A stretch of 64,000 nt of DNA from Pseudomonadota bacterium (GTDB taxonomy: Bacteria > Pseudomonadota > Alphaproteobacteria > Acetobacterales > Acetobacteraceae): NCBI GenBank assembly GCA_021815825.1, contig JAKAZO010000009.1:1-64000 (forward strand), written 5' to 3'. Shown here in pieces: positions 5,997-35,431 of the stretch. Each line of letters starts with the position of its first letter. The first letter of the stretch is position 1. Below the pieces are notes generated by a model. That model was not told the DNA's origin, did no database searches, and was given only the letters and a program-made list of their open reading frames with translations. Position numbers and translations under genes: made by a program.

Positions 5997-6836
5997 TCAG
6001 CGCGGCCGGTCGCCGGCCAGGGTGATGCGGTGCATGACGCGGCGATAGCCGTGATAGTCGTTCACCGGGTTGTGCTGGGCGGCGCGGTTGTCCCAGAAGG
6101 CCAGCGTCCCCGGCTCCCAGCGGACCCGGCAGGTGAATTCCGGCCGCACCTGGTGGGCAAAGAGATAGGACAGCAGCCCGGCGCTCTCCGCCTCGGTCAT
6201 GCCCTCGAAGCGGGCGGTATGGGCGACGTTGACGTAGAGCGCCTGCCGGCCAGTCTCGGGATGGGTGCGTGCCACCGGATGCACGGCCTCGAACACCTGG
6301 CCCGCCTGCTCGCTCGGGGTGTCGCGGATACGGTCCTCGCGCGTGCGCGAGACATCGGCGCGGGCCGAGCTGTTGACCGCGCGCAGCCCATCGAGCACGG
6401 CGCGCAGCGCCGGGGAGAGCGCATCGTAGGCGGCATACATATTGGCGAACAGCGTGTCGCCGCCGCGGGGCGGAACCTCGCGGGCGAGCAGCATGGTGCC
6501 GAGCGGTGGCGTCTCCAGATAGGCCGTGTCGGAGTGCCAGATGCCGCCGAAATTCACCGTCTCGTGCTCGCGCTTGATCACCGGGGTGATGACCGGAAAC
6601 CCGTCGAGGCCGCGCACGAATGGGTATTCGACCGGGGTGCCGAAGCGCCCGGCGAAGGCGACGAACCCGGCCGGATCGAGCCGCTGGTCGCGGAAGACGA
6701 TGACGAGATGCTCGAGCAACGCGGCGCGCACAGCGGTGACGGTCTCGTCGGGCAGTTCGGCGGCGAGATCGATGCCGAGGATTTCCGCGCCGATCGAGCC
6801 TGAGAGCGGGCGAATCTGAAACGTCGCTGCGGGCAC
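5997..6836 (-). CDS. TauD/TfdA-family Fe(II)/2-oxoglutarate dioxygenase
   Basis: A 279-residue non-heme iron dioxygenase. The metal triad is H101-x-D103 (IWHSDTAY) and H255 (RAAQHNPVND), with R270 (MHRITLAGDRP) binding 2-oxoglutarate; these positions closely track taurine dioxygenase. Such enzymes hydroxylate taurine, sulfonates, alkyl sulfates or aryloxyacetates. No sulfonate ABC transporter lies nearby, so the substrate cannot be assigned; sulfur scavenging would suit the nearby sulfur genes but is inference. The upstream divergent region to 7055 is AT-rich and likely holds promoters for both directions. Confidence 0.87.
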   Translation of the reverse strand: MPAATFQIRPLSGSIGAEILGIDLAAELPDETVTAVRAALLEHLVIVFRDQRLDPAGFVAFAGRFGTPVEYPFVRGLDGFPVITPVIKREHETVNFGGIWHSDTAYLETPPLGTMLLAREVPPRGGDTLFANMYAAYDALSPALRAVLDGLRAVNSSARADVSRTREDRIRDTPSEQAGQVFEAVHPVARTHPETGRQALYVNVAHTARFEGMTEAESAGLLSYLFAHQVRPEFTCRVRWEPGTLAFWDNRAAQHNPVNDYHGYRRVMHRITLAGDRPR

Positions 6837-19247: not shown

Positions 19248-19868
19248 ATGCACCATCCGCTCGCCGCCGCCGCGGCGCTCATGCTCGTCGCCGGCAGCGT
19301 CCGCGCCCAGCAGCGCTTCCCCGCGCTGACGCCGGACCAGATGACGCCGGCGCAGCAGGAGGTCGTCAGCCACATCACCTCCGGCCCGCGCCACTCGCTC
19401 GCCGGCCCCTTCAATGCCTGGCTGCGCAGCCCCGATCTCGCCGACCGGTTGCAGCGCGTCGGCGAATATATCCGCTTCAAATCCTCCATCCCGCACGTGC
19501 TGAACGAGCTCGCCATCCTCGTCACCGCGCGCCAGTGGAATGCCGAGTTCGAATGGTACGCGCACTACAAGATCGCCATGCAGGCCGGCCTCTCCCCCGC
19601 CATCGCCGACGCCATCGGCGCCGGCCGCCGGCCCGAGGGCATGAGCGCCGACGAGGCCATGGTCTATGATTTCTGCACCGAACTCTATGCCCACAAGACC
19701 GTGACGGACGCCACCTTCAACGCCGTGAAAGCCCGCTTCGGCGACCAGGGCGCCGTCGATCTCATCGGTCTGACCGGCTACTACACGACCGTCTCGATGA
19801 CGCTCAACGTCGCCGGTGTGCCAGTGCCGGACGAGGCGGACGCGCCGCGGCTGCCTTCGCGCAAATAG
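19248..19868 (+). CDS. Secreted carboxymuconolactone decarboxylase-family protein
   Basis: A 206-residue protein with a signal peptide (AAAAALMLVAGSVRAQ, cleavage at about residue 20) and a CMD/AhpD-like all-alpha domain. Core pattern: LNELAILVTARQWNAEFEWYAHYKIAMQAGLSPAIADAI. The redox CxxC of AhpD is absent: the position reads ARQWNAEFEW, so a peroxidase role is unlikely and the function is unknown; gamma-CMD itself is a decarboxylase. GGGAGG precedes the ATG. It sits 31 bp after tyrS and before the redox module; two further CMD-family genes lie 4 kb downstream. Confidence 0.82.
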   Translation: MHHPLAAAAALMLVAGSVRAQQRFPALTPDQMTPAQQEVVSHITSGPRHSLAGPFNAWLRSPDLADRLQRVGEYIRFKSSIPHVLNELAILVTARQWNAEFEWYAHYKIAMQAGLSPAIADAIGAGRRPEGMSADEAMVYDFCTELYAHKTVTDATFNAVKARFGDQGAVDLIGLTGYYTTVSMTLNVAGVPVPDEADAPRLPSRK

Positions 19869-20054: not shown

Positions 20055-20672
20055 ATGGATATTCGTCGCGTCACGCTCGGTCTCACGCTCGCCTTCGGTG
20101 GCACGCTGTTCGCCGCCTCCTGGGCCGGCGCCGAAGGGCCGCCGCCGCAGCACCTGCGGGGCAGCGTCGACTCGCTGCAGGACCATGTCCTGGCGGTGAA
20201 GACCGCGCGCGGCGAGCAGAAGGTCGCCTTCGCAGACACCACCAAGGTCTTCCAGGTCAGCCGGGCCGATATCAGCGCCGTCGCCGACGGCCGCTTCGTC
20301 GGGATCACCTCGGTCGAGAAGAATGGCCATCGGGTCGCGGTCGAGGTGCATATTTTCGACGAGAGCCTGCGCGGGCTGGGTGAAGGGCACTATCCCTGGG
20401 ATCTGGACAGCGGACCGAACATGATGACCAACGCCAACATCGCGAAGGTCGAGTCGGTCGGCGCGGACCGGGTCCTGAAGCTGGACTACAAGGGTGGGTC
20501 GCAGACCATCGACGTGCCGCCGGACGCTCAGATCGTCGCCTTCACCGCCGGGTCGGCCGATGAGTTGAAGCCGGGCGCCAAGGTGTTCGTGATCGCGCGC
20601 AAGGCCGATGACGGCCAGCTCGCGGCGGGCGCGGTCGTGGTCGGCAAGGACGGGCTGAAGCCGCCGATGTGA
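20055..20672 (+). CDS. Secreted DUF5666-like protein, function unknown
   Basis: A 205-residue exported protein with a signal peptide (LGLTLAFGGTLFAASWAGA, cleavage near residue 26). The mature part appears to be two similar beta domains, each starting with a line such as RGSVDSLQDHVLAVKTARGEQKVAFADTT or AKVESVGADRVLKLDYKGG and containing a VFxVxRAD/VFVIARKAD-type strand. This OB-like pattern resembles DUF5666-type proteins; no cofactor motif is visible. It starts a four-gene run with a cytochrome b, a molybdopterin protein and a cytochrome c, overlapping the next gene by 4 bp (GTGA). Confidence 0.6.
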   Translation: MDIRRVTLGLTLAFGGTLFAASWAGAEGPPPQHLRGSVDSLQDHVLAVKTARGEQKVAFADTTKVFQVSRADISAVADGRFVGITSVEKNGHRVAVEVHIFDESLRGLGEGHYPWDLDSGPNMMTNANIAKVESVGADRVLKLDYKGGSQTIDVPPDAQIVAFTAGSADELKPGAKVFVIARKADDGQLAAGAVVVGKDGLKPPM

Positions 20673-21517
20673 CGTCGATGGCCGGCGCAGGCAGGGCGGC
20701 CTCCGAACCCCGTCCGGGGCGCCGGCTGATCCATCGGCACTCGGCCGTGGTGCGGGTGACGCATTGGGTGAATGTCGTCTGCCTGACCGTGCTGCTGATG
20801 AGCGGGCTGCAGATTTTCAACGCGCACCCGGCCCTGTACTGGGGCCAGCAGTCCGACTTCGACCATCCGCTGCTGGCGATGACGGCGGAAGAGCCGGCGC
20901 GTGGGGTCACGACGGTGCTGGGGCACCGGTTTGTCACCACCGGTGTGCTGGGCGTGTCGAACGACGCGTCGGGGCAGCCCGTGGCCCGCGGCTTTCCGGG
21001 CTGGATCACCCTGCCGGGCTGGCAGTCGCTGGCGGAGGGCCGGCTGTGGCATTTCTTTTTCGCCTGGCTGCTGGTCGCGAACGGCACGGTCTATGTGCTG
21101 GCGGGCGTGATCAGTGCCCATTTGTGGCGCGATCTGGTCCCGCGCCGGGGCGAGTGGCGGCTGATCGGGCGGACGGTGCGCGACCACGCGCTGCTGCGCT
21201 TTCCGCACGGCGAGGAAGCGCGTGCCTATAATGTGCTGCAGAAGCTGGCCTATCTCGGGGTGGTCGCGATCGTGTTGCCGGTGATCGTGCTCGCCGGCCT
21301 GGCAATGTCGCCGCGGCTGGACGCGGCGTTCCCCTGGCTGCTCGCGCTGTTCGACGGCCGACAATCGGCTCGCACCGTGCATTTCATCTGCGCCATGCTG
21401 CTGGTCGGCTTCGTGCTGGTGCACGTGCTGATGGTGGTGCTGTCCGGCGTGTGGAACAATCTCCGCTCCATGGTGACGGGACGCTACGCGATCGAGGACG
21501 ATGGCCATGGCCAGTGA
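20669..21517 (+). CDS. Cytochrome b561-type membrane subunit
   Basis: A 282-residue integral membrane protein with four predicted helices. Candidate heme histidines: RVTHWVNVV (helix 1), RLWHFFFAWLL (helix 2), RTVHFICAMLL and VLVHVLMVVL (helix 4). This is the pattern of the thiosulfate-reductase/b561-like cytochrome b subunits that pass electrons between the quinone pool and a periplasmic partner. A periplasmic loop of about 70 residues between helices 1 and 2 is long. GTG 20669 overlaps the previous stop; ATG 20678 is an alternative. The next gene starts 17 bp before this one ends, so the two are tightly coupled. Confidence 0.83.
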   Translation: MTSMAGAGRAASEPRPGRRLIHRHSAVVRVTHWVNVVCLTVLLMSGLQIFNAHPALYWGQQSDFDHPLLAMTAEEPARGVTTVLGHRFVTTGVLGVSNDASGQPVARGFPGWITLPGWQSLAEGRLWHFFFAWLLVANGTVYVLAGVISAHLWRDLVPRRGEWRLIGRTVRDHALLRFPHGEEARAYNVLQKLAYLGVVAIVLPVIVLAGLAMSPRLDAAFPWLLALFDGRQSARTVHFICAMLLVGFVLVHVLMVVLSGVWNNLRSMVTGRYAIEDDGHGQ

Positions 21518-22283
21518 CGACAAGCCGCGCGCGCCGGGGCGGCGCGCGGTGACGACGGCGGCGCTGGGCTCGCTGCTGCTGGGCGGGTGCGACCGCTTGG
21601 CGGGCAATCCCAAGGTGCAGGGGTGGCTGGGCAGCGCCTCGCGTCTTTCGCTGCTGGTGCAGCACTGGCTCGCCGGTGATGCGCTCGCACCCGAATATAC
21701 CGAGGCGGATATCACCCGGTCGTTCAAGGGCAACGGGACCCAGGACCCGGACGACGACGAGTACCAGGCGCTCGCGGCGAGCGGGTTCGCCGAGTGGAAG
21801 CTGCTGGTGGATGGGCTGGTGGCCCGGCCAGTCCAGTATTCGCTGGCGGATCTGCGCGCCATGCCGGCGCGGACGCAGATCACCCGCCATGACTGCGTCG
21901 AGGGCTGGAGCTGCATCGGCAAATGGACAGGCGTGCCGCTGGCCGAGATCCTCCAGCGGGTCGAGCCGAAGGGCGCGGCGCGGTTCGCCGTATTCCATTG
22001 CGCGGATCCGATGGAGAACGGCAATCCGGCGACAAAATATTATGAAAGCATAGACCTCATAGAAGCGGTGCATCCACAGACCATCCTGGCCTACGAGATG
22101 AATGGCACGGCCCTGCCAGTGGCGCACGGCGCGCCGCTGCGGCTGCGGGTGGAGCGACAACTGGGCTATAAGATGGCGAAATATGTGATGCGGATCGAAC
22201 TGGTCGAGGATTTCCGCTCCATCGGTGGCGGCAACGGCGGCTATTGGGAAGACCAGGGATATGCCTGGTATGCGGGAATCTAG
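21501..22283 (+). CDS. Tat-exported molybdopterin-binding oxidoreductase (sulfite oxidase fold)
   Basis: A 260-residue protein of the SUOX/MsrP-like molybdopterin-binding family. Twin arginine R14-R15 (PGRRAVTTAALG) and a lipobox-like LLLGGC with C30 suggest Tat export of a folded, possibly lipid-anchored periplasmic enzyme. The molybdenum-ligand region is TRHDCVEGWSCIGKW: C132 aligns with the metal cysteine of the family, and C138 is an extra nearby cysteine. It should be the catalytic subunit of the module, with cytochrome b and cytochrome c as redox partners. It lacks a dimerisation domain and the substrate is unknown. Confidence 0.82.
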   Translation: MAMASDDKPRAPGRRAVTTAALGSLLLGGCDRLAGNPKVQGWLGSASRLSLLVQHWLAGDALAPEYTEADITRSFKGNGTQDPDDDEYQALAASGFAEWKLLVDGLVARPVQYSLADLRAMPARTQITRHDCVEGWSCIGKWTGVPLAEILQRVEPKGAARFAVFHCADPMENGNPATKYYESIDLIEAVHPQTILAYEMNGTALPVAHGAPLRLRVERQLGYKMAKYVMRIELVEDFRSIGGGNGGYWEDQGYAWYAGI

Positions 22284-22482
22284 CTTCCTCGGAGGCAGAG
22301 CCCGCCCGCGCATTGCCGCCTGCCTTGGGCTATCGGGCGGTTGACGGCCTCCGCCACCATCGGCCGCGGCATGGTTCGGTCCTCGCCTGGAGCGTGATGA
22401 CCGTAGGTGAACTCGCCGCAGCTCTGAATCACGCGATCGAACATAGAGCTTGAGTGGGGTGGCTCACCACGGGAGGCGCGCG

Positions 22483-23313
22483 ATGCCAACGATCCTGTCG
22501 CTGATTCTGTTCCTGCTGGCTGGGCTGGCCGGTTCGTCCGCCATTGCCGCCGAGCCCGAGCTGACGATCACGATGGGTGGCACCAGCGTTCGGATCTCGC
22601 GTGCCGAACTGCTGGCGCGCCGGGACGTCGCGACGGTCACCGTGCCGCACGATTCCGCCTATGGCCGGCCGATGACCTATCGCGCCGTGCCGCTGCGCGC
22701 GCTGCTCGCGGACCTGCCCCCGAGTGCGGCGGATACGATTGCGGCGCGGGCCACGGACGGGTTCGTCTCGCAGCTGCCGCGGAGCCTCATCGATGGCGCG
22801 TCGGTGCCGTGGGTGGCGGTCGAGGACGCGGCGCACCCGTGGCCGAACCTGCCGGGCCAGAGCGTTTCGGCCGGTCCGTTCTACCTGATCTGGCAGCACC
22901 CCGAGCTTGGCCATGTCTCCTCCGAGCAGTGGCCCTATGCGCTGGCGGGCTTTGCCGAAGTCGCCTCGCCGCTGCAGCGATGGCCGGGGCTGGCGGTGGA
23001 CGCGTCCCTGCCCGCAGACGCGCCGGCGCGGCGCGGGCAGGCGGTGTTCATCGTCAACTGCCTGCCGTGCCACCGACTCGCCGGCAACGGGGAGGGCGTG
23101 GCGGGGCCCGATCTGCTGCGGCCGATGCCGGCCGTGACCTATTTCACCGCCGACGGGCTGCGGGCGCTGATCCGCGACCCGGCGGCGGTGCGCACCTGGC
23201 CGGCGCAGCGCATGCCGGGATTCGCGGCCGACGTCGTCAGCGATGCCGATATCGACGCGGTGATCGGCTATCTGCGGGTTCAGGCAGCCAGGCGGACGGA
23301 GCCTAGCCCTTGA
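22483..23313 (+). CDS. Periplasmic c-type cytochrome with an N-terminal SUOX-like domain
   Basis: A 276-residue protein with a signal peptide (cleavage near AIAA, residue 23) and two parts. Residues 25-165 look like a non-catalytic beta domain (TMGGTSVRISRAELLARRDV, YRAVPLRALLADLP) resembling the molybdopterin-binding fold but without the metal cysteine. Residues 180-270 form a class I cytochrome c domain with C193-x2-C196-H197 (NCLPCHRLAGNG) and a likely axial Met in QRMPGF. ATG 22483 follows GGGAGG. A 199-bp gap separates it from the molybdoenzyme, so it may have its own promoter. It overlaps the convergent AhpD-like gene by 11 bp. Confidence 0.8.
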   Translation: MPTILSLILFLLAGLAGSSAIAAEPELTITMGGTSVRISRAELLARRDVATVTVPHDSAYGRPMTYRAVPLRALLADLPPSAADTIAARATDGFVSQLPRSLIDGASVPWVAVEDAAHPWPNLPGQSVSAGPFYLIWQHPELGHVSSEQWPYALAGFAEVASPLQRWPGLAVDASLPADAPARRGQAVFIVNCLPCHRLAGNGEGVAGPDLLRPMPAVTYFTADGLRALIRDPAAVRTWPAQRMPGFAADVVSDADIDAVIGYLRVQAARRTEPSP

Positions 23314-23698
23314 GGGCGGGGTCCACGTCCTGGCCGTAGAACGTCGCGTAGCTGTTGCCCTCGAGGGCGAGGCTGACGATCTCGACCATTTCCGCCAGCT
23401 CGGCCTCGCTCGCGCCCTTCCGTGTCGCCAGCGCCGTGTGCGACGCGGTGCAATAATGGCAGCCATTGGCGATGCTGACCGCGACGTAGATCAGCTCCTT
23501 GGTCTTGGCGTCCAGCACCCCGGGCTGCATCACCGCCTTCGCCCGCTCCCAGAAGCGGCGCATCACGGCTGGGTGGCGCGCCATCGCCTTCCAGGCGTTG
23601 TTCACGTCCGGCACGCCGCGCGCGGCCTTGATTTCGTCCATCACCGCACGGGCCTCGGGCGCGGCGTCCGCATACTCGATCAGCTTGCCGTAGCTCAT
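23303..23698 (-). CDS. AhpD-like carboxymuconolactone decarboxylase-family protein
   Basis: A 131-residue all-alpha protein with the redox motif GCHYCTASHTALA: the CxxC plus following histidine of AhpD-type alkyl hydroperoxidases, which use lipoamide- or thioredoxin-like donors. The rest matches the CMD family (TKELIYVAVSIANGCHYC). It is probably a small cytoplasmic peroxidase or reductase; no partner AhpC or regulator is adjacent. It lies tail-to-tail with the cytochrome c gene. Confidence 0.87.
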   Translation of the reverse strand: MSYGKLIEYADAAPEARAVMDEIKAARGVPDVNNAWKAMARHPAVMRRFWERAKAVMQPGVLDAKTKELIYVAVSIANGCHYCTASHTALATRKGASEAELAEMVEIVSLALEGNSYATFYGQDVDPALKG

Positions 23699-23838: not shown

Positions 23839-24609
23839 CTAGTGCCGACGCTTCTCGAACACATCTTTTGCGACCGGCAGCGCCGACATGGCGTTCGGCC
23901 ATCCGGCATAGAAGGCGAGATGCGTGATGACCTCGGCGGCTTCCGGCTGGGTCAGCCCGTTATCCATCGCCCGATTGAGGTGATAGGGGATCTGCGCGAC
24001 CTGACCGGATGCGATGAGTGCGCTGACCGTGACCAGGCTGCGGTCGCGCGGCGCGAGATCGGGACGCAGCCAGAGGTCGTGGAACAGAATGTCGGTGGTG
24101 TACTGAACGAGGCCGGGCGCGGTGGCACCGAACTGCTTGCTGACACGCGCCGCGCGCTCCGCTTCGGCGGCCCCGTCGAGCGGCAGAAGTGGCGGCGAGG
24201 CCGCCGGAAGTTGATCGGGGCCGATCCCACGCGCCGCAAAGACATCCTTGGCCACGGCGACTGCGGAGATGGCGTTCGCCCAGCCGGAATAGAACGCGAG
24301 GTGGGTGATGATCTCCGAAATCTCGCGCGGCTTCACGCCGCTATCGAGCGCGAGATCGAGATAGAACGCCATCTCGATCGTCTGGTCGCGCGCGATCAGA
24401 GCGGCGAGCGTGACGATGCTGCGATCCCGTGCCGAGAGGCCCGGACGCTTCCAAACCTCGCCAAGGAGCCGGTCGCGCGTATATTTCGCGAGCGCTGGAG
24501 CGACCATCTGCACGTCGTTCCGCATCGTCGTGTCCTCCGCTTGTGCCCAGACTGGCCCCAGCGATGTGAATGCGACCATCACCGCGGTGACGAATCTCGA
24601 TCCGATCAT
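23839..24609 (-). CDS. Secreted tandem carboxymuconolactone decarboxylase-domain protein
   Basis: A 256-residue protein with a signal peptide (FVTAVMVAFTSLGPVWA, cleavage near residue 22) and two CMD repeats: residues 35-125 (RPGLSARDRSIVTLAALIARDQ ... ITHLAFYSGWANAISA) and 160-250 (RPDLAPRDRSLVTVSALIASGQ ... ITHLAFYAGWPNAMSA). Neither repeat has a CxxC, so AhpD-type peroxidase chemistry is unlikely. The architecture matches secreted double-CMD proteins annotated as gamma-carboxymuconolactone decarboxylases; the biochemical role is unproven. It is 235 bp downstream of the TetR gene, same strand. Confidence 0.85.
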   Translation of the reverse strand: MIGSRFVTAVMVAFTSLGPVWAQAEDTTMRNDVQMVAPALAKYTRDRLLGEVWKRPGLSARDRSIVTLAALIARDQTIEMAFYLDLALDSGVKPREISEIITHLAFYSGWANAISAVAVAKDVFAARGIGPDQLPAASPPLLPLDGAAEAERAARVSKQFGATAPGLVQYTTDILFHDLWLRPDLAPRDRSLVTVSALIASGQVAQIPYHLNRAMDNGLTQPEAAEVITHLAFYAGWPNAMSALPVAKDVFEKRRH

Positions 24610-34501: not shown

Positions 34502-35431
34502 GTGTCCTGGTTCGTGCGAGGCAAGTCGGGCCGGCGCGCCACCCTGGTCGGCCTGCTGGCCGTCGTCGGGGTGATGCTGACGCTGGTCTCCTATTCGGTC
34601 ACGCTCTACCGGCTGTTCTGCGAGGCGACCGGCGCCTTCGGCACGACCCAGCGGGTGGCCGCCAACGCCAGCGCGACGACCGGGCGCAAGCTGACGGTGC
34701 TGTTCGATACCTCGGTGGCGCCGAACCTGCCGTGGCGCTTCGTGCCGATGCAGCGCAAAATCGAGCTCCGCGCCGGCCGCTCGGCGCTGGTCTTTTTCGA
34801 GGCGGAGAACCTCTCCGATACCGAGATCGTCGGCCACGCCACCTTCAACGTCACCCCCGAGAAGGCCGGCGTGTTCTTCAAGAAGATCGAGTGCTTCTGT
34901 TTCACCGAGGAGCGGCTCGCGCCGCACACCAAGGTCCAGATGCCGGTCCAGTTCTTCGTCGACCCGGCGATCGGGCGCGATCCGAACACCGCCGATATCG
35001 GCGAGATCACCCTCGCCTACACCTTCTTCCGGTCCGCGCGGCCGCAAGGGGCGGCGGATCTGGCGCGCTTTGCCAATGCCCCGCCGGACGCCGAGGCGGG
35101 CGAACAGCTCTTCGCCGAGCAATGTGCCGGCTGCCATGCGCTCGACACGGCCCGGATCGGACCTCCGCTCGGCCATGTCATCGGCCGGCGGGCGGGCAGC
35201 GTGCCCGGCTATCCCTATTCGCCGGCGCTGGCGCAGTCCGGTATCGTCTGGTCCGAGGCGACGCTGACCAACTGGCTCGCCGGGCCGCAGGCGATGGTTC
35301 CGGGCGCCTTGATGCCCATGGCCGTGCCGGAGGTGGCGGCGCGGCGCGATATCGTCGCCTATCTGGAAAAGATCGCCGCCCAGGCGAATATCGGGCAAGC
35401 TCCGGCCGTGCCGGCCCGGCCGCCCGGCTGA
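34502..35431 (+). CDS. ctaG: Cytochrome c oxidase assembly protein CtaG (Cox11) fused to cytochrome c
   Basis: Residues 1-178 are a complete Cox11/CtaG protein, which delivers copper to the CuB site of cytochrome c oxidase. There is one N-terminal helix (LLAVVGVMLTLVSYSVTLYRLF) and the copper motif CFCF at residues 131-134 (KKIECFCFTEERL); the family normally ends near ITLAYTFFR at about 177. Here the frame continues for about 130 residues into a class I cytochrome c domain with C208-x2-C211-H212 (EQCAGCHALD) and a likely Met ligand in GALMPM. GTG 34502 lies after GGAGGA; TTG 34496 is the alternative. No cox structural genes are adjacent. Confidence 0.88.
   Translation: MSWFVRGKSGRRATLVGLLAVVGVMLTLVSYSVTLYRLFCEATGAFGTTQRVAANASATTGRKLTVLFDTSVAPNLPWRFVPMQRKIELRAGRSALVFFEAENLSDTEIVGHATFNVTPEKAGVFFKKIECFCFTEERLAPHTKVQMPVQFFVDPAIGRDPNTADIGEITLAYTFFRSARPQGAADLARFANAPPDAEAGEQLFAEQCAGCHALDTARIGPPLGHVIGRRAGSVPGYPYSPALAQSGIVWSEATLTNWLAGPQAMVPGALMPMAVPEVAARRDIVAYLEKIAAQANIGQAPAVPARPPG

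Follow-up and report, generated by a model that had tools for sequence, protein, structure and literature searches.

The closest described counterpart of the locus presented here is the OrhK/OrhR-regulated C3566-C3567-C3568 operon of the uropathogenic Escherichia coli (UPEC) strain CFT073, in which C3566 and C3567 are described as forming a putative methionine-sulfoxide (MetSO) reductase system that protects from H2O2 (PMC8550376). The enzymatic activity of C3566/C3567 is itself deduced from genetics; the third gene, C3568, codes for a methionine-rich secreted peptide of 80 aa. Comparable combinations of a methionine-rich scavenger, a SUOX reductase, and a membrane partner, which we liken to our locus by their descriptions, are YedYZ-MrpX of Azospira suillum and BcrXQP of Brucella, both linked to defence against reactive chlorine (PMC4623255, PMC8315932); the Brucella bcrXQP genes, which include one for a methionine-rich MXKDX protein, are induced by HOCl (PMC8315932). 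The better-known MsrPQ system (YedYZ of E. coli) couples a SUOX-fold enzyme, which is devoid of the dimer domain and bears its molybdenum-ligand cysteine in a CVExW motif, to a membrane partner with b-type heme.

The window, i.e., the whole stretch of 64,000 nucleotides that was analysed, contains four plus-strand ORFs that the first-pass annotation had placed correctly and had taken for a single module (Table 1). The overlap it reported for the first three genes is likewise borne out (4 bp between genes 1 and 2, and 17 bp between genes 2 and 3). Gene 4 could begin at a TTG (22450) or an ATG (22483), of which the latter is the likelier because the homologues in the two nearest relatives (loci L004 and L005) begin there. 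Counted from this ATG, gene 4 does not overlap gene 3 but follows it after 199 bp (22284-22482), as against 36 bp in L004 and L005, so that about 160 extra bp lie between the two genes in the window. A scan for promoters and terminators found none.

Table 1. Coordinates of the four genes of the locus in the window.
Gene	Product	Position	Strand	Length (aa)	Domain
1	secreted beta-type protein	20055..20672	+	205	DUF5666-like, below threshold
2	four-helix b-type cytochrome	20669..21517	+	282	PF01292
3	SUOX-fold molybdoprotein	21501..22283	+	260	PF00174
4	periplasmic cytochrome c, PruR-like N-domain	22483..23313	+	287 (TTG-start version, 22450-23313)	Cytochrom_C

The gene 3 product matches PF00174 (1.4e-36) and displays, within the motif RHDCVEGWSC, the molybdenum-ligand cysteine Cys132, which is invariant in 45 relatives. 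Equally invariant in these is C30, located in a lipobox (LLGGC) downstream of a twin arginine; the product is therefore probably a Tat-exported lipoprotein with its lipid anchor at Cys30, a point absent from the first-pass annotation. The best NCBIfam model for this protein is that of MsrP, which all 45 of 45 members match. Nevertheless, we rejected its identification as a canonical MsrP, since it scores 106 bits against the cut-off of 207 of the MsrP equivalog model (NF003767), and the same genome encodes, on other contigs, a true MsrP (373 bits) along with an MsrQ-like protein falling just below its cut-off. The sole Ferric_reduct match of the genome also lies on another contig, whereas the partner of gene 3 is a PF01292 protein, and the predicted lipid anchor constitutes a further difference from MsrPQ. 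At 27-29% identity, the PF00174 paralogues found elsewhere in the genome were treated as separate proteins. The 'YedY' gene CC2748 of the Caulobacter sigma-F regulon was also dropped as a candidate relative because the paper in question reports no cytochrome b partner for it.

The gene 2 product, with a PF01292 match at 1.7e-22 and four hydrophobic segments, has six histidines (24, 32, 128, 173, 238, and 252) that are invariant across 80 sequences and is the probable electron carrier on the quinol side. Scanning bacterial and archaeal genomes for gene 3 homologues recovered 80 loci (55-88% identity), mainly from Proteobacteria, with some from Nitrospirota, Rokubacteria, and Thermodesulfobacteriota. 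The gene for the cytochrome b lies directly 5' of the molybdoprotein gene in all 77 loci with upstream DNA; in the remaining three the contig begins at gene 3. Thus, the synteny anticipated for the whole set holds for genes 2 and 3, whereas gene 4 adjoins the pair only in L004 and L005 (88 and 87% identity), and gene 1 does so in six of the 80. Given that genes 2 and 3 are always paired while genes 1 and 4 occur sporadically, the locus comprises a two-gene core with exchangeable companions, and the arrangement in the window is a lineage-specific variant. One Nitrospirota contig (L041) additionally shows, after the full gene, the 3' end of a second, partial molybdoprotein gene (6067-6237; 82% identity to residues 204-260).

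Gene 1 codes for a protein with a signal-like N-terminus. It recovers, in phmmer searches, 'hypothetical proteins' from Agrobacterium, Pararhizobium, and Paroceanicella (E about 1e-34), which are encoded 5' of the pair on plasmids of these organisms. Its homologues adjoin the pair in L004, L005, L016, L034, L063, L079, L138, L140, and L141; in several Alphaproteobacteria the family accompanies the pair as an accessory gene, and its product would act as an accessory secreted protein.

Comparison with the UPEC operon establishes that the core pair belongs to a type that has been studied before, though under a different name. The order of the two genes is the same, with the cytochrome b gene directly 5' of the SUOX gene. 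C3567 is collinear with the gene 3 product over residues 7-251 (35% identity) and shares with it the twin arginine, the lipobox, and the motifs TRHxCVEGWS (TRHDCVEGWS in gene 3) and GGYWED. Part of C3566, which is marked as frameshifted in its RefSeq record, aligns with the gene 2 product (E 4e-6). The earlier description of the module as having no known substrate was hence too pessimistic: for its two-gene core, UPEC provides a matching gene set to which a function has been assigned, together with a methionine-rich peptide gene. The window differs in that it has no methionine-rich third gene, a feature also setting it apart from the Azospira and Brucella systems, and instead has the beta protein gene upstream and the cytochrome c gene downstream.

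Relatives of the pair provide the link to methionine that the window itself does not. Of 85 loci, 19 have a small secreted methionine-rich ORF adjoining the pair, in most cases directly 5' of the cytochrome b gene. This amounts to an approximately 15-fold excess over background (19 in the zone from -1.7 to +0.8 kb around the molybdoprotein gene, 263 kb in total, versus 3 in the other 638 kb), which is a description and not an independent test, since what counts as 'methionine-rich and secreted' was defined once these loci had already been inspected a first time. Independent support for the association comes from the UPEC operon, which came to light later. In the molybdoprotein tree the linked loci are spread over at least five separated branches, and the protein from the window falls in a supported clade with those of the methionine-rich-linked loci L137 and L079. 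The MXKDX-repeat model TIGR02953 is passed by the ORF of L038 (44.1, cut-off 41), while C3568 of UPEC and the ORFs of L022 and L053 match it below the cut-off. When searched in the same way, the window yielded no small secreted methionine-rich ORF, and the genome as a whole gave no match to TIGR02953, a model that misses some of the methionine-rich neighbours of the 85 loci.

Taken together, these observations lead us to favor, as the probable function of genes 2 and 3, a two-component periplasmic MetSO reductase in which electrons would pass from quinol via the cytochrome b and the molybdenum center to methionine sulfoxide. The notion of a membrane-linked redox enzyme formed by a cytochrome b and a SUOX molybdoprotein, already put forward in the first-pass annotation, is thereby sustained. 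Specifically, the gene 2 cytochrome would draw electrons from the quinol pool and hand them to the exported and putatively lipid-anchored gene 3 molybdoprotein, for which the reduction of oxidized methionine in periplasmic proteins is the likeliest activity, the targets in relatives potentially including the co-encoded methionine-rich oxidant scavenger. The pair might then represent a counterpart of MsrPQ in which a PF01292 cytochrome replaces MsrQ. The association with methionine-rich genes is not proof of the substrate; the lack of such a gene in the window, the missing TIGR02953 match in its genome, and the low MsrP score all count against this reading, and since the genome also has a true MsrP and an MsrQ-like protein, repair alone may not explain the presence of the pair. 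Nor does a quinol-driven reductase need a c-type cytochrome, and gene 4 is therefore unexplained by this reading. The proposal supplies a substrate that can be tested for a large family whose current annotation reads just 'molybdopterin-dependent oxidoreductase' next to 'cytochrome b', and connects this family with the methionine-rich scavengers of soil, plant-associated, and halophilic bacteria.

An improbable alternative is that the gene 3 product instead oxidizes sulfite or another small sulfur compound, passing the electrons to the cytochrome b and quinone or to the adjacent cytochrome c. Sulfite oxidation with transfer of the electrons to a cytochrome partner is the activity of SorA-SorB and SorT-SorU, and a cytochrome c gene does follow gene 3 in the window. 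SorA, SorT, and SoxC have the SUOX fold and the molybdenum cysteine in common with gene 3, and among solved structures the AlphaFold model of its product (pLDDT 78.6) is closest to SorA (Z 20.7), followed by MsrP (Z 18.8) and the PruR proteins (Z 12-14); going by this predicted model, the ranking of SorA would speak against a MetSO reductase. However, these enzymes possess a Mo-co dimer domain, while a search of the gene 3 product at E up to 1 recovers PF00174 alone and the protein ends at 260 aa; it is therefore not built like the sulfite oxidases. Its matches to the NCBIfam models of SorA, SoxC, and SorT are weak (57.5, 52.6, and 40.8 bits against cut-offs of 600, 420, and 570, respectively), and on these grounds we rejected its assignment as a sulfite dehydrogenase. 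The enrichment of methionine-rich genes next to the pair in relatives, the sequence profile of gene 3, which is nearer to MsrP, and the lack of a cytochrome c gene beside the pair in other lineages all argue in the same direction.

Gene 4 combines a C-terminal Cytochrom_C domain (3e-9) with an N-terminal domain (approximately residues 36-172, numbered from TTG 22450) that has no Pfam match. The heme c motif (C204-x-x-C207-H208) and M255, a possible axial heme ligand, are invariant in 23 sequences. A profile of the N-terminal domain built from 18 relatives retrieved four PruR structures as its top matches (7kp2, at 1.8e-6, followed by 7kom, 7kos, and 7rkb, down to 0.28), and comparison with the gene 3 profile gave P = 2.8e-5 with a probability of 74%. 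The position of the molybdenum ligand lacks a cysteine in every member (25 relatives). These sequence profiles, on which the fold assignment is based, a single-sequence AlphaFold model being too poor (pLDDT 43), uphold the idea that the N-terminal half of the cytochrome c adopts a SUOX-type fold lacking the metal cysteine. They do not support the accompanying view of it as a pseudo-copy of the adjacent enzyme, its nearest solved relatives being the PruR pterin-binding proteins. The pterin contacts of PruR include the aromatic residues Tyr104 and Trp160 (PMC13259868); the matching positions, identified by reading the alignments, are F/Y and Y/F/W throughout the gene 4 family, whose members may bind pterin. 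Like PruR, they are secreted, but PruR is a single domain of about 170 aa, while the gene 4 family is fused to cytochrome c in all members. PruR is also encoded in two-gene operons whose second gene specifies DcpA or a sensor kinase of the DTB type, neither of which is seen beside gene 4 among those of its immediate neighbours that were scanned for domains.

The fusion is widespread in Proteobacteria, with representatives in Burkholderia, Caballeronia, Cupriavidus, Pseudomonas, Microvirga, Tistrella, and several genomes of the class to which the window belongs. A literature search found no paper combining PruR with cytochrome c, and the fusion thus appears undescribed. Two more distant subfamilies (L091-L094 and L095-L097) display the same architecture of a PruR-like domain and cytochrome c at 24-27% identity to gene 4, and differ in the N-terminal domain and the heme region. 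A search of viral contigs for the gene 4 cytochrome c found no relative.

This distribution bears on the model of the first-pass annotation, in which the four proteins work together as a unit, with the enzyme and the cysteine-less cytochrome c linking the cytochrome b/quinone pool to a c-type chain. The shared strand and order of the genes in the window, L004, and L005, the gap of just 36 bp between genes 3 and 4 in the latter two, and the SUOX-type fold of the N-terminal domain of gene 4 would all suit such a unit. Yet, in annotated Pseudomonas and Burkholderia records the cytochrome c looks like a lone gene; the other cytochrome c loci have neither the beta protein, the cytochrome b, nor a close homologue of the molybdoprotein; and outside the lineage of the window the fusion is never found beside a close homologue of the pair in its other loci. 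The stand-alone loci show no conserved neighbours beyond close relatives. At the genome level, among 385 genomes of the class, the fusion is strongly matched in 7 and the molybdoprotein family in 17, both being strong only in the genome of the window; in one further genome a weaker molybdoprotein match lies 620 kb from its cytochrome c. We therefore consider it unlikely that the four genes constitute one module. Gene 4 would rather be a separate family that became part of the locus solely in this lineage; its periplasmic product probably serves in electron transfer or redox sensing, and any function shared with the pair would be hypothetical.

A more far-reaching but rather unlikely possibility is that this widespread periplasmic family couples a pterin-binding SUOX-type domain directly to a c-type heme, such that a reduced extracytoplasmic pterin may donate electrons to, or be sensed via, the cytochrome c chain; in the present lineage the family would have been joined to a MetSO reductase. 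If true, extracytoplasmic pterins would be possible redox partners and not ligands alone. That the family is instead a periplasmic redox sensor, conveying the state of its pterin and heme to another protein with the pair as a bystander, is highly improbable: PruR does bind reduced pterins in the periplasm and signals via DcpA or sensor kinases (PMC13259868), and every member of the cytochrome family has an aromatic residue at the equivalents of its Tyr104 and Trp160, but no DcpA-type or PruR-DTB-type gene occurs among the immediate neighbours examined, and of the cytochrome c loci with annotation, L115 is the only one with a sensor kinase gene, which lies on the other strand.

Elsewhere in the window, three genes coding for proteins of the carboxymuconolactone-decarboxylase type (AhpD-like) are distributed over both flanks of the locus (19248-19868, plus strand; 23303-23698 and 23839-24609, minus strand). 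A further plus-strand ORF (34505-35431) combines a CtaG/Cox11 copper-chaperone domain, scoring 188 bits against a cytochrome c oxidase assembly model, with a C-terminal cytochrome c domain.
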